Position numbers and translations under genes: made by a program. Of a stretch of DNA of 64,000 nt, positions 3,846-31,285 are shown in pieces. Numbering within the stretch: the stretch's first letter is position 1; each line of letters begins with the position of its first letter. The DNA is from Micromonospora matsumotoense (lineage in GTDB: Bacteria > Actinomycetota > Actinomycetes > Mycobacteriales > Micromonosporaceae), in assembly GCF_900091525.1 (NCBI RefSeq), contig NZ_FMCU01000005.1, positions 62,001 through 126,000 of the forward strand, given 5' to 3'. The notes under the pieces were generated by a model. It was not told the DNA's origin. It did no database searches and saw only the letters and a list, made by a program, of their open reading frames with translations.

Positions 3846-4567
3846 GCGGACTCCAGGCGCGCGGCGTGATCCGGTCGTACGGCCCGACACCGGCCCTGCG
3901 CGACGTCAGCCTCGACGTCGCCGAAGGGGAGATCGTCGCCGTGACCGGGCCCAGCGGCTGCGGCAAGTCCACTCTGTTGCACTGCCTCGCCGGCATCCTG
4001 CGCCCGGACAAGGGTGAGGTGCACTGGCGGGGGGAGCGGATCGACACCTGGCCCGAGGCGGCGCGGTCCCGGCTGCGCCGTACCGAGTTCGGGGTGTTGT
4101 TCCAGTTCGGTCAGCTCGTCGCCGAGTTGACCGCGGTGGAGAACGTCGCCCTGCCCCTGCTCCTCGCCGGCACGGGGCGGCGAGAAGCAGGGCAGGCGGC
4201 GTGCGAGTGGCTGGACCGGTTCGGCGTCGCCGACCTCGCCGACGTGCGCCCCGGCGCGATGTCCGGCGGGCAGCAGCAGCGCTGCGCCATGGCCCGTGCC
4301 CTGATCACCGGACCCCGGGTGATCTTCGCCGACGAGCCGACCGGTGCCCTCGACACACTCAGCGGCGAGGAGGTCCTCACCCAGCTCGTCCGGTTCGCCC
4401 GCGAGCAGGGCACCACCATCGTCCTGGTCACCCACGAACCCCGGATCGCCGCGTACGCCGACCGGGAGGTGATGCTCCGCGACGGCGTGGTCGACCCGAC
4501 CGGCCTCGGCCTGGACGAACCCCTCGTCCCGGTCCCGGCGGCCGGTCCCGGCGCGGGCCCCCGGTGA
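3842..4567 (+). CDS. ABC transporter ATPase (MacB/LolD type)
   Basis: This 241-residue ATPase has a Walker A GPSGCGKST at residues 36-44, an MSGGQQQR signature, a Walker B VIFADEP and the EPTGALD D-loop region. These are typical of the LolD/MacB subfamily that pairs with FtsX-like permeases. The GTG at 3842 overlaps the PadR stop codon as GTGA. The partner is the permease gene that follows. The pair probably moves an antimicrobial or lipophilic compound or senses cell-envelope stress; the substrate cannot be read from sequence. Confidence 0.92.
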   Translation: MSGLQARGVIRSYGPTPALRDVSLDVAEGEIVAVTGPSGCGKSTLLHCLAGILRPDKGEVHWRGERIDTWPEAARSRLRRTEFGVLFQFGQLVAELTAVENVALPLLLAGTGRREAGQAACEWLDRFGVADLADVRPGAMSGGQQQRCAMARALITGPRVIFADEPTGALDTLSGEEVLTQLVRFAREQGTTIVLVTHEPRIAAYADREVMLRDGVVDPTGLGLDEPLVPVPAAGPGAGPR

Positions 4568-27351: not shown

Positions 27352-27547
27352 GCCGACCGGTGAGCACCCGGTCGACACCGAGGGTCACCTGGTAGGCGAC
27401 CTCCGGCACGTTGGCCAGGTCGAGGCGCTCGGCCCGCAGGGCGAGCTGGGCGTGCAGCTCCCGGGCCACCGCGTCGCGGATCTCCCGCAGCAGCGGGGAG
27501 AGGCCGTCAGGATCGCCCACCGTGTACGCGTCGTCCATGCGTCCCAT
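27317..27547 (-). CDS. small conserved-type hypothetical protein
   Basis: A 76-residue acidic, largely helical protein (73 residues if the second ATG at 27538 is used), with SPLLREIRDAVARELHAQLA as the core. I do not recognise a family with a known function. Its 3-prime end overlaps ccsB by 35 bp in convergent orientation, and codon use is consistent with coding. It may be a soluble helical-hairpin protein. Confidence 0.55.
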   Translation of the reverse strand: MGRMDDAYTVGDPDGLSPLLREIRDAVARELHAQLALRAERLDLANVPEVAYQVTLGVDRVLTGRLTPPRRTSAGR

Positions 27548-27676
27548 CCTCCGCCGGAGGACCAGGTGTGTCGATGCCCCTTGGCCTGCAGAACGTCTCC
27601 CCCTCCCGAAGCCGGTCAGCGGCACCGACCGGCAGCGGTAGTTGGTGGTCGTGCTGCCTTCCCGTTGGCCGATACC

Positions 27677-27705
27677 TTGACGCCCCATAAGGCTGATGAC
27701 ATCAT
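27677..27705 (+). promoter_or_regulatory. promoter of the secreted hydrolase gene
   Basis: TTGACG (27677-27682), a 17-base spacer and CATCAT (27700-27705) place the transcription start near 27712, directly before the first operator. The resulting leader would be about 525 bases. Confidence 0.5.
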
Positions 27706-27715
27706 CGCCGAACGA

Positions 27716-27729
27716 TGTTTGCGTAAACA
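27716..27729. promoter_or_regulatory. LacI operator copy O1
   Basis: TGTTTGCGTAAACA differs by one base from the perfect palindrome found at the other two sites. It lies directly after the predicted transcription start, a repressing position. Confidence 0.75.
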
Positions 27730-27786
27730 ATTTAGGGTTTAAATCGGACATCAGCTTCGACTGCGGCGTCCGGAGGGGGCCGCGCT

Positions 27787-27818
27787 CCTTGTCGATGTTT
27801 ACGTAAACATCGACAAGG
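27787..27818. promoter_or_regulatory. LacI operator copy O2 inside a 32-bp perfect palindrome
   Basis: The core TGTTTACGTAAACA is at 27796-27809, and the symmetry continues without a mismatch from 27787 to 27818. Its centre is exactly 80 bp from that of O1, a spacing that places both sites on the same helix face and would suit looping by a tetramer or paired dimers. It could also fold as a hairpin in the leader RNA. Confidence 0.8.
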
Positions 27819-28237
27819 GTGGCGTGGTCGGCGTTGACGGCCGGCGGGGGAGACGCCTTGACCCCTGGCCCACCCGTCTGCGAGGAGAGACTCTCCATGA
27901 GAAAGTGGGACAAGCGCATCGCCTGGGTGCTCGTACCCCCTTGATGGCGATGACAAGCTGGAGGTGCCGTCGATGTCTTCGACGGCACACGAGGGTTCGG
28001 CCCGTCGGTGATGGTCACGCCGACCGGACACTGCAGTCGTCCGTACCGCATCTCGTATGCGGGGTCGACCCCACTGCCGAGCGGCAAGATCGTAGCCACC
28101 CTACGAGGACGACGACCAGCCGCTGGACACCAACTCGCCCGGCTGACAGTTCCCTGAACTCCGCCGTACCGCCACCAGGTCACTCCCGACGCGGCGGACC
28201 CGGACGAGACCTCGTTCCCCCGCTATTGGAGCCGCAC

Positions 28238-29815
28238 ATGTTCCCGAAGCAGACAGGCGTCAGATCCGGCGCCGCCCCGCTTTCCCGTCCCCTCCCCCTC
28301 CTTGTCCTGCTCCTGCTGCTCGCCCTGGTCGCGGCGGTCGGCACGGTCCTCCTCCCCACAGTGAGCGAGGCCGTCACCCGTTCCTCGCAGACCATGTACA
28401 CCCCGCCGTCCGGCACCCCCGCCCCCGGCACGCTCTACCCGAGGGGGATACGGCTGGAGCACAGCGGGTCGTCCAACGGCACCATGCTCGCCACCTTCGA
28501 GCAGTACACCAACGGCAAGCCCGTCTTCCCGATCTACCGCAGCACCGACACCGGCAACTCCTGGACCAAGATCTCGGAAGTCGCCGACACGCAGAACGGC
28601 TGGGGCATGCGCTGGCAGCCACAGTTGTTCGAACTGCCCACCGCGATCGGCAACTTCCCCGCCGGGACCATCCTGGCCGCCGGCGACTCCGTCCCCAGTA
28701 ACCGCTCCGGGTTCAAGATCGACATGTACGCCAGCACGAACCAAGGGCAGACCTGGACCTTCGTCAAGAACATCGTCAACGGCGCGGGCAGACCGGTCTG
28801 GGAACCCTTCTTCCTGGTCAACGGCAACAAACTCATCGTCTACTACTCCGACGAGCGAGACAGCAGCCACAGCCAGAAGCTGGTGCACCAGGTCAGCACG
28901 GACGGCGTCAACTGGGGCCCCGTCGTCGACGACGTGGCGACCTCCACCCGAAGCGACCGACCCGGCATGTCGACAGTGGCGAAGCTGCCGAACGGCAACT
29001 ACGTGATGACGTACGAGTACGGGGGCTCGCCGGCGGGAAACCTCGCGGTCTACTACAAGATCTCCGCCAACCCCGAGGCGTTCGGCTCAGTCACCGGCCA
29101 GGTCCTGAGGTCGACCGACGGCCACACCGCCCTCTGGAACCCGTACATCACCTGGCTTCCCACCGGCGGCTCCAACGGCACCCTCGTCGTCAGTGCGCAA
29201 AGCACCACCGACGTGTTCGTCAACACCCAGGGCGGTGCCGCGAACGCCTGGACCCGGGTCGATTCCAAGGTCGCCGGCGGGTACAGCCGCGGCATGGTTC
29301 CGCTGGCCGACGGCCACAGCCTGGTGGTGCTCAGCGGCGGCTACAACGGCAGCACCGTCAACTCCGTCACGTACAGCACCATCGACCTGGGCGGCGTCGT
29401 GCCGACGACACCGGTCCCGTCCACGGGGACGACGACGGCGAGGCTGATCGGCGCTCAGTCGGGTCGTTGCCTCGACGTGCCGAACAGCAACCCCGCAAAC
29501 GGGACCAGGCCGGCGCTGTGGGACTGCCACACCGGGGCCAACCAGCAGTGGACGTACAACGCCTCCACCCGCCAGTTGCAGTCGCTCGGCAAGTGCCTGG
29601 GCGTCTCCGGTCAGAGCACGACGCCGGGCGCCACGGCGGTCCTCGGGGACTGCGGCAGCGGTGCCCACCAGCAGTGGACGCTCACCAACAACACCGTGGT
29701 GGGAGTCCAGTCCGGGCTGTGCCTGGACGTCGCCAACAACGCGACCGCGAACGGATCAGCGGTGAACATGTGGACCTGCAACGGAGGCGCCAACCAGCGG
29801 TGGACCCGCGGCTGA
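28238..29815 (+). CDS. secreted GH93-like beta-propeller hydrolase with ricin B lectin
   Basis: The 525-residue protein has a basic N-terminus and one strong hydrophobic helix (about residues 20-45), i.e. a signal peptide or anchor. Residues about 65-385 are a sialidase-superfamily propeller with Asp-boxes STDTGNSW, STNQGQTW and STDGVNW. GWGMRWQPQLFELP, VWEPFFLVNGNKLIVYYSDERD and RPGMSTVAKLPNGNYVMTYE resemble GH93 exo-arabinanases more than true sialidases. Residues 400-525 are a ricin-type beta-trefoil (CBM13) with QxW repeats. It probably trims a plant or cell-wall arabinose polymer outside the cell. The ATG at 28238 has ggag upstream. Control by the LacI gene at 30209 is inferred from shared operators. 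Confidence 0.82.
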   Translation: MFPKQTGVRSGAAPLSRPLPLLVLLLLLALVAAVGTVLLPTVSEAVTRSSQTMYTPPSGTPAPGTLYPRGIRLEHSGSSNGTMLATFEQYTNGKPVFPIYRSTDTGNSWTKISEVADTQNGWGMRWQPQLFELPTAIGNFPAGTILAAGDSVPSNRSGFKIDMYASTNQGQTWTFVKNIVNGAGRPVWEPFFLVNGNKLIVYYSDERDSSHSQKLVHQVSTDGVNWGPVVDDVATSTRSDRPGMSTVAKLPNGNYVMTYEYGGSPAGNLAVYYKISANPEAFGSVTGQVLRSTDGHTALWNPYITWLPTGGSNGTLVVSAQSTTDVFVNTQGGAANAWTRVDSKVAGGYSRGMVPLADGHSLVVLSGGYNGSTVNSVTYSTIDLGGVVPTTPVPSTGTTTARLIGAQSGRCLDVPNSNPANGTRPALWDCHTGANQQWTYNASTRQLQSLGKCLGVSGQSTTPGATAVLGDCGSGAHQQWTLTNNTVVGVQSGLCLDVANNATANGSAVNMWTCNGGANQRWTRG

Positions 29816-29830
29816 CACCAACCTGACGTG

Positions 29831-29864
29831 GGAGGGTTCCGGAACGCCTGTTCCGGAACCCTCC
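29831..29864. terminator. strong terminator hairpin
   Basis: A perfect 15-bp stem (29831-29845 with 29850-29864) with a 4-base loop follows the hydrolase stop by 15 bases. The flanking acgt bases extend it imperfectly. It separates the hydrolase from the minus-strand fragment. Confidence 0.85.
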
Positions 29865-29870
29865 AACGTC

Positions 29871-30135
29871 TCTACAAGGGTCGTCTTCACGACGGCGATG
29901 CCCCTGGGCGCCAGACCGTTCGGGCCACGGGTCCCGGCATCCTCGCCGGTGGTCACGATCGGGTCGCCGTCGATGCTGGTGATGTCCACGGGTTCATCCG
30001 TGCGGTTGATGAGAAACCAGAAGTCCGCGTCCCCGCCGCCGCGTACGGCGAGTTCCACCCGGCCTCGCAGGTCGGTGAGCAGCGGGAAGCTGCCGATGTT
30101 TACGTAAACACCGGCGGTGATAACGTCACCAGCCT
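29871..30135 (-). pseudogene. fragment resembling the C-terminal domain of a GH42 beta-galactosidase
   Basis: The minus frame encodes about 85 residues (LRGRVELAVRGGGDADFWFL, then INRTDEPVDI and NGLAPRGIAVVKTT) that look like the C-terminal beta-sandwich of beta-galactosidases, which ends such proteins with an LAPxGVAV strand. There is no catalytic domain, no good start (only a TTG) and no stop where the domain should end. The LacI operator O3 lies in frame at its 5-prime side. The simplest reading is a glycosidase gene reduced to its promoter edge and last domain by an internal deletion. Confidence 0.5.
30097..30110. promoter_or_regulatory. LacI operator copy O3
   Basis: TGTTTACGTAAACA is identical to the core of O2 and lies about 100 bp before the LacI gene. 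It could give autoregulation and may have controlled the now-decayed minus-strand gene. Confidence 0.75.
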
Positions 30136-30208
30136 CGGATGGCGTCAAGAACCAGACAGCTGCCTTATCGTGTCGTTCAACAGCCCGCCGGGCTGCGAAA
30201 GGAGCACC

Positions 30209-31285
30209 GTGGCGATGATCCCAGCATCGCCGGACGGTGTGCCGCGGGCCCTCGCAGGATCGTCAGGCATCACCCGGCGCCACCGGCGCGTGTCGATGGC
30301 GGACGTGGCCCGAGCGGCCGGCGTCTCCGCGCAGACGGTATCCCGCGTCTCCACCGGCCATCCCGGTGTTGTCGCGTCCACCCGCCAACAGGTTCTCGCG
30401 GCGATGCAGCAGTTGGGCTACCGGCCCAACAGTGCGGCCCGGGCGCTGAAGAACGGCGAGTTCCGCACCATCGGCGTCATCATCTTCACGCTGTCCACCA
30501 CGGGAAACAGCCGGCTGATCGAGGCGATCGCCACCCACGCCAGCCGGGCTGGTTACGTGATCACGCTCATGCCCGTGGCGACACCCACCCAGCACGGCGT
30601 GCTGGGCGCGTTCACCCGACTGGGCGAGTTGGCGGTGGACGCCGTCATCGTGGTGATGGAGGTGCATCTGCTCGACGCCGCGATGTTCGTCCTCCCGCCG
30701 GGGGTACATGTCGTGGTCGTCGACTCCGATGCCGGCGACCGTTACCGCGTGGTGGACACCGATCAGGCCGACGGTGCGCGGCAGGCCGTCCAACACCTGC
30801 TCGACCTCGGCCACCACACCGTCTGGCACGTCGCCGGGCCGCCGGAGTCCTTCGCCGCCGAGCGTCGGGCGACGGCGTGGCGCTGCGTGCTTGAAGGGGC
30901 GGGTCGGCCCGTACCGTCGATGCATCGCGGCGACTGGTCGGCCGAATCCGGTTACCGCGCCGGCCTCCTGCTGGCAGACGAGGCGTCGTGCACCGCGGTC
31001 TTCGCCGGCAACGACCAGATGGCCCTCGGCGTGCTGCGGGCGTTGCACGAGAAGCAACGGATCGTTCCCCGCGACATCAGCGTGATCGGCTTCGACGACA
31101 TCCCGGACAGCGCCTCGTTCATTCCACCGCTGACCACGATCCATCAGGACTTCGCCGAAGTAGGCCGCAGATGCGTCGAGACCGCGCTGCGACAGATCCG
31201 CAACCAGCCCGTCGAGCCCGGTACCAGCCTGGTGCCGAACCGGCTGGTGACACGGGCCAGCACGGCAACACCGCGAACCGCCTGA
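30209..31285 (+). CDS. LacI family transcriptional repressor
   Basis: The 358-residue protein has a LacI DNA-binding domain at about residues 30-85 (MADVARAAGVSAQTVSRV, then VSTGHPGVVASTRQQVL and GYRPNSAARAL). The hinge helix is followed by a periplasmic-binding-like ligand domain (TIGVIIFTLSTTGNSRLIEA through VIGFDDIPDSASFIPPLTTI). LacI repressors bind palindromes with a central CG, as at O1-O3, and release them on sugar binding. The GTG at 30209 lies four bases after ggag; the ATG at 30215 is the alternative. The ligand is probably a product of the neighbouring hydrolase (inference). Confidence 0.9.
   Translation: MAMIPASPDGVPRALAGSSGITRRHRRVSMADVARAAGVSAQTVSRVSTGHPGVVASTRQQVLAAMQQLGYRPNSAARALKNGEFRTIGVIIFTLSTTGNSRLIEAIATHASRAGYVITLMPVATPTQHGVLGAFTRLGELAVDAVIVVMEVHLLDAAMFVLPPGVHVVVVDSDAGDRYRVVDTDQADGARQAVQHLLDLGHHTVWHVAGPPESFAAERRATAWRCVLEGAGRPVPSMHRGDWSAESGYRAGLLLADEASCTAVFAGNDQMALGVLRALHEKQRIVPRDISVIGFDDIPDSASFIPPLTTIHQDFAEVGRRCVETALRQIRNQPVEPGTSLVPNRLVTRASTATPRTA

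Follow-up and report, generated by a model that had tools for sequence, protein, structure and literature searches.

We analyzed a 64,000-nucleotide stretch of Micromonospora matsumotoense contig NZ_FMCU01000005.1 (hereafter, the window), in which a gene for a secreted GH93 exo-arabinanase is followed by a gene for a LacI-family repressor. Three copies of a 14-bp palindrome, TGTTTACGTAAACA or a one-mismatch variant, accompany the two genes. Two of them, O1 and O2, lie between the GH93 gene and its predicted promoter, and the third, O3, lies between the two genes, next to a remnant of a GH42 beta-galactosidase gene. The locus is probably a reduced, local LacI regulon, in which O1 and O2 would repress the GH93 gene and O3 would be left from a deleted divergent operon. 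Coordinates are given in Table 1; L and G numbers are our labels for loci and genomes, and the two sister species are Micromonospora antibiotica (locus L011) and the species of genome G008.

Table 1. Features of the M. matsumotoense locus, numbered from the first nucleotide of the window
Feature	Position	Strand	Remarks
Predicted promoter of GH93 transcript	27677..27705	+	TTGACG, 17-bp spacer, CATCAT; TTGAC elements recur beside LacI orthologs with equal distance to the site
Operator O1	27716..27729		TGTTTGCGTAAACA, one mismatch; at expected transcription start; unchanged in M. antibiotica and G008
Perfect 32-bp palindrome around O2	27787..27818		G008, 36 bp; M. antibiotica, 30 bp, one pair mismatched
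Operator O2	27796..27809		TGTTTACGTAAACA, exact; in leader; 1 base changed in M. antibiotica, none in G008
Leader segment, 216 bp	27889..28104	+	Absent in both sister species; ATG (27898) after GAGGAGAG
Secreted GH93 exo-arabinanase, 525 aa, ending in a ricin-type lectin domain	28238..29815	+	Assigned from domain and structure matches
Inverted repeat after GH93	29825..29870		Arms 29825-29845 and 29850-29870; strong; no T run
GH42 beta-galactosidase C-terminus remnant	29885..30070	-	PF08533, 27.8 bits (cut-off 21)
Operator O3	30097..30110		TGTTTACGTAAACA, exact; absent in both sister species
Promoter-like module	30120..30148	-	TTGACG-17-CGTTAT, then O3; 74% like GH93 promoter over 35 nt
LacI-family repressor, 358 aa, GTG start	30209..31285	+	Recognition helix SAQTVSR; no tetramer segment

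Genes and operator sites at the locus

The hydrolase has a hydrophobic N terminus, and its residues 46 to about 369-386 match 2ydt, 2w5n, and 3a71, which we take to be GH93 enzymes, at about 1e-80. By similarity over its catalytic domain it is assigned as a GH93 exo-1,5-alpha-L-arabinanase, so that the secreted hydrolase proposed in an original prediction on this DNA takes the form of an exo-arabinanase with a ricin-type lectin end. Homologs of the catalytic part were found at E≤1e-30 in six of 160 genomes of the genus: M. matsumotoense itself, G008 and G115 (97%), and three at 34-45%. The LacI protein matched PF00356 with 58.6 bits (cut-off 27) and PF13377 with 120.1 bits (cut-off 26.5), and is thus classed as a LacI-family regulator with a helix-turn-helix and a periplasmic-binding-protein-like sensor domain. 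Its nearest natural protein of solved structure was E. coli LacI (1lbg, 2.8e-48), and a reconstructed ancestral LacI scored better (1.9e-58).

All three sites were located where the original prediction had placed them. That prediction was to fall if the 14-mer proved common genome-wide; a scan of the whole genome (7,755,577 bases in 57 contigs) at up to one mismatch returned O1, O2, and O3 and no other place, in the window or beyond it. Relaxing the search of the window to three mismatches gave four matches, against 0.10 expected in shuffled sequence, the fourth being at 30550 with three mismatches, inside lacI. TGTTTACGTAAACA is an even palindrome with a CG centre, a form described as the rule among LacI-family regulons by Ravcheev et al. 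2014 (PMC4052901). The claimed TTGACG/CATCAT pair is present as a promoter-like element and is the only sigma-70-like site in 27500-30400 (mean of 0.2 in shuffles), and O1 and O2 lie 80 bp apart, as had been stated. From the end of O2 to the hydrolase start codon at 28238 is 429 bp.

The symmetry around O2 is likewise unbroken over the 32 bp claimed for it. Apart from the shorter palindromes nested within it, no further perfect one of ≥20 bp turned up in the window. Its length is unusual: across 124 distinct exact operators located before LacI orthologs, palindromes reach at most 26 bp. In M. antibiotica, the palindrome retains 15 pairs, with a single mismatch next to the centre. The flanks of O3 are also nearly symmetric.

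Co-conservation of regulator and operator

Distribution of the regulator and of its presumed operator was compared within the genus (160 genomes for the protein and 151 for the exact 14-mer) and in the best 80 of 255 ortholog loci taken from named records. A LacI ortholog was present at E≤1e-120 in 14 of the 160 genomes. The exact 14-mer occurred in eight of the 151, and all eight were among the 14 ortholog carriers, with ortholog and exact site on different contigs in one of them (G001). The other six carriers had variants with one or two mismatches, located beside LacI or, in G115, before GH93.

When up to two mismatches were allowed, 61 of the 80 loci carried a site in the 450 bp before LacI; 53 of these sites are exact, seven have one mismatch, and one has two. 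The TTGAC element of the promoter accompanies the site: it stands 28-48 bp before it, reading away from LacI, in 162 of 179 site-bearing upstream regions, and the same element on the opposite strand, used as a control, was seen in four of the 179. Ten of the 19 loci lacking an upstream site (L081-L090, 44-50% identity) carry the recognition helix HQTVSR or KQTVSR, and the others have S, A, T, or G before QTVSR, in a comparison that leaves out L017. The remaining nine have the usual kind of recognition helix, a point against the reduced-regulon reading; they comprise L011, with its sites before GH93, L033, where LacI is near a contig end, L036, L053, and L072, with sites elsewhere in the locus, and L060, L075 (three mismatches), L078, and L079.

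The co-conservation of regulator, operator, and recognition helix strongly supports the view, already put forward in the original prediction, that the TGTTTACGTAAACA sites serve the linked LacI gene as its operators. The repressor, of LacI type and probably dimeric, would bind TGTTTACGTAAACA, and its presence on O1, over the start of the GH93 transcript, would block initiation.

Several variants of this arrangement were observed. In the Micromonospora loci L117, L120, and L121, the operator is replaced by AGTTTACGTAAACA (as read on the strand that leads away from LacI), TGGTTACGTAAACA, or TGGTTACGTCAACA. One-mismatch sites occur 5.6-5.7 kb upstream of LacI in L019 and L022. In each of six genomes (G181, G211, G371, G612, G699, and G736), the LacI query matched twice at E≤1e-100, so that paralogs may be present. 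A literature search for the 14-mer found nothing, although the motif may be listed in RegPrecise; one for TTTACGTAAA with LacI returned, by title, only papers on phage CRISPRi and cyanobacterial terminators. Searching for LacI-family operators with arabinogalactan or galactosidase in Streptomyces gave nothing, and in the records returned by a looser search none concerned this regulator, judged by title and the opening of the abstract.

Spacing of paired operators and helical phase

Repression by looping between O1 and O2 had also been proposed, and we therefore examined paired sites in relatives, using 203 upstream regions of LacI orthologs (some species appear twice under two labels). In 112 regions, a site, a TTGAC-type element, and a second site were all present; 67 had one site or no element, and 24 had none. 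The set of spacings leaves out L163 at -61 (its other spacing was kept) and L076 at -148 (the locus was dropped), and includes five two-site loci that have no TTGAC element (L012, L139, L073, L074, and L075). Four of 60 short upstream regions (G060, G297, G235, and G212) were used at their short length.

The resulting 116 spacings cluster at 23-24, 32-36, 42-46, 53-58, 62-70, 75-80, and 86-87 bp. Across the ortholog group they form a ladder that starts at 23 bp and ends at 87 bp, its rungs about 10.7 bp apart. For the 31 distinct values, the best period was 10.75 bp, which one of 20000 random sets equalled (periods 9-13), and at a fixed 10.5 bp none of 20000 did so. Related species share spacings, and the test on distinct values and a second one on clades were meant to meet this kinship and the double labels. 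For the second, 189 names were reduced to 180 proteins (rows with no match, with a stop inside the match, or duplicated were dropped), and the tree was read for the 108 distinct LacI proteins with two sites, the window and the two sister species being entered with their GH93 spacing. The rung changed at least 24 times on this tree. With one value per same-rung clade (48 values), R was 0.67 at 10.7 bp, which none of 20000 random sets reached.

The phase refers to the partner operator. In 103 distinct regions, O1-O2 distances gave R 0.711 at 10.65 bp, and distances from the -35 element to O2 gave 0.424, at the edge of the scan; the O1-O2 phase was the tighter in 2000 of 2000 bootstraps. The -35 element was accordingly rejected as the phase reference for O2. 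Bound dimers that touch each other would give rise to just such a phased O1-O2 distance. We lean, by a small degree, toward a group-wide explanation in which repressor dimers touch on one face of the DNA over two to eight turns, without the lac tetramer helix, and in which the second operator has moved by whole turns about two dozen times or more; in the clade of the window, the divergent operon would have been deleted and the repressor left with GH93, the phase drifting since. In the reduced-regulon reading, O2, 80 bp into the leader, would strengthen repression, either because the dimers on O1 and O2 touch across a short loop of DNA or because O2 is a second block.

A number of points weigh against contact. 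The alignment with E. coli LacI extends to residue 334 of its 360, and the query has a single residue beyond that point. The E. coli LacI equivalog model NF007075 gave 278.7 bits, below its cut-off of 340, and matched to 335 of 358, and the C-terminal tetramer segment expected of that equivalog after about residue 334 is missing. The tetramer helix of E. coli LacI presumably lies in this C-terminal segment, and the known tetramer helix therefore cannot make the O1-O2 contact. Many orthologs terminate at nearly this point, a few residues earlier or later, and some have longer tails. A second operator is not universal, given the 67 regions with one site or no TTGAC element and the 24 with none, and second sites were accepted with up to three mismatches. 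The tree was built by a quick method, and among its 105 inner branches 37 are starred and 29 are open. Ten differences between sister clades on different rungs were 8, 11, 11, 12, 12, 12, 13, 13, 29, and 35 bp, so that single steps are not all whole turns.

The window itself fits the ladder poorly. Its 80 bp is 0.33 turn off the common phase, and five of 105 other spacings are as far off; the spacing is 80 bp in G008 and 79 bp in M. antibiotica, and for 79 bp 13 of 105 are as far off. In addition, the pair of the window stands before GH93, and the pairs of relatives stand before the divergent gene. Looping is therefore least certain in the window's own locus: the proposal gains from the helical phasing of paired sites in the ortholog group and loses by the absent E. 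coli-type C-terminal segment and a spacing close to the worst phase. O1 and O2 might instead act without contact, O1 blocking initiation and O2 serving as an independent road block to elongation. The off-phase 80 bp, the missing tetramer segment, and the position of O2 inside the expected transcript suit this account, which we nevertheless consider possible but doubtful, as a road block needs no helical phase and the pairs of the ortholog group are phased.

Dimer contact across a short loop has parallels in described systems. Auxiliary operators with helical-phase dependence are reported for E. coli LacI, the nearest natural solved protein, and fitted helical repeats for lac looping in vivo range from 10.95 to 11.60 (PMC1762422). 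The protein of the window differs in having no tetramer segment, another operator sequence, and one local target. In the gal repressosome, as described in PMC4693257, GalR dimers bound to operators on the same DNA face, 11 turns apart, are joined by a loop; that loop is 113 bp and needs HU, in contrast to 23-87 bp in the relatives and 80 bp in the window. Among LacI-family regulons, about 20% of operons are reported to have more than one site, with peaks at 13, 22, and 32 bp, of which those at 22 and 32 bp are read as cooperative binding (PMC4052901). The tandem sites here differ in coming from one ortholog group with rungs from 23 to 87 bp, and Streptomyces is not named in the main text of that study. 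Our search for literature on operator spacing with 10.5 bp in actinobacteria found nothing. If contact is correct, the ortholog promoters form a natural spacing series that climbs roughly turn by turn between 23 and 87 bp, for a repressor that has no lac tetramer helix, and short-range cooperation of LacI-type dimers becomes directly testable.

The third site, the lost operon, and the GH93 leader

The original prediction read the locus as compact and autoregulated, with O3 before lacI and repressing it and the three sites acting together. By position this holds, since O3 ends 98 bases before the lacI GTG at 30209, and in relatives an operator likewise lies between lacI and the divergent gene. 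However, O3 directly follows a promoter-like module of the reverse strand, which has the same plan as the modules beside LacI in relatives, reads away from lacI, and runs into the GH42 remnant. The best match of that remnant (57% over 61 aa) is to the GH42 end in L013. Both sister species lack the -10 element, O3, and the remnant, and keep LacI at 98-99% identity. The placement of O3 in a reverse-strand module, together with sister species that do without it and retain LacI, makes autoregulation a weak proposition, and the absent tetramer segment also speaks against this reading; the locus as first proposed is quite improbable. An effect of O3 on lacI could still exist, though not a conserved one.

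We instead read the third site as the operator of a lost divergent operon. Both sister species carry an orphan -35 part beside lacI (L011:9932-9946 and the matching place in L100), and such an orphan is most readily understood if the rest was lost there, which makes O3 probably ancestral. Among the 80 loci, homologs of one permease were present in 34 and of the other in 32, of a binding protein in 31, of GH42 in 20, and of GH30 in 36. Some of these neighbor matches are distant paralogs (L071 and L089, 30-39%), and Pfam names agreed with the neighbor assignments in the examples tested. In many cases the ortholog lies divergently to an operon for a sugar ABC transporter and GH42, or to a GH30 gene. 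The genome of M. matsumotoense holds neither a close permease nor a close GH42. In it, the closest permease is 41% identical to that of L017; linked permeases are by comparison 61-84% identical to the same protein, excluding the twin L016 and two distant paralogs. The closest GH42 is 56% identical to that of L012, and linked GH42s are 47-85% identical to that of L052, another GH42 query. A GH30 homolog was not found in this genome in a search that had no positive control. A divergent transporter/beta-galactosidase operon would thus have been deleted except for its promoter, its operator, and the end of its GH42 gene, and with that operon lost, LacI would remain with GH93. The locus looks like a relic with a reduced regulon, that is, a regulon in decay whose regulator has been kept for a different enzyme.

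From the linked transporter, GH42, and GH30 genes and the similarity to LacI, we infer a repressor responsive to a galactoside, and the ortholog group looks like a set of galactoside or galactan regulators. GH30 enzymes of the kind found beside the orthologs are, we assume, beta-1,6-galactanases. A sugar ligand, most likely a beta-galactoside or galactose, would release the repressor. The bifidobacterial GosR/GalR is similar by description, as a local carbohydrate regulator whose pathway is galactan (PMC4746261). A galactoside ligand is at odds with the remaining target, as GH93 acts on arabinan. The ligand in the clade of the window might then be an arabinan product, in keeping with GH93, as no other intact structural gene was found beside an operator in this genome. 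We consider this possible but doubtful: the genes that accompany the orthologs are those for GH42, transporters, and GH30, with a GH93 homolog in one of the 80 loci only (L011, a near twin of the window), and the nearest natural solved relative is E. coli LacI.

Promoter types among the relatives differ in operator number: Streptomyces orthologs with a divergent GH30 gene (L025 and others) mostly have one operator, and transporter-type promoters mostly have two. Nonomuraea maritima (L052) has a further exact site at 4375-4388, starting 38 bp before a separate GH42 gene.

It had also been suggested that the leader RNA may fold at O2. From an assumed start at 27712, the predicted fold had a z of -2.99, and one of 200 shuffles was as good. 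The palindrome arms persist in both sister species, the single core change of M. antibiotica falling in the predicted loop. A stem at O2 is expected, however, because any perfect palindrome folds, and kept arms with a change in the loop do not separate a role in RNA from one in DNA. Footprinting of the spacer and palindrome draws on three close species, too shallow a set to use. The suggestion therefore stands as far as the predicted stem goes, with its RNA and DNA roles not told apart. That the palindrome is an RNA stem of the GH93 leader, affecting stability or translation beside the operator core, is in our view unlikely. In its favor are the fold and a length that exceeds that of every exact operator of relatives and reaches the values of Table 1 in the sister species; against it, besides the folding of any palindrome and the few close species, are the nearly symmetric flanks of O3 and the Rfam scan of 27400-30400, which gave nothing at gathering scores.

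In the 216-bp leader segment downstream of O2, a short frame begins with an ATG (27898) that has a good ribosome site before it. A Pfam search of 27824-28237 at E≤0.1 gave nothing, and comparison of the segment with the ortholog loci gave no convincing protein match. A DNA search with 27880-28240 matched eight of the 160 genus genomes: M. matsumotoense itself, the two sister species (only in the part behind the segment), and five with short matches at E~1e-4. Of the short-match places, the four inspected held different, unrelated frames. A stem like the inverted repeat at 29825-29870, which in the window separates GH93 from the GH42 remnant, also occurs in the sister species, with changed bases.

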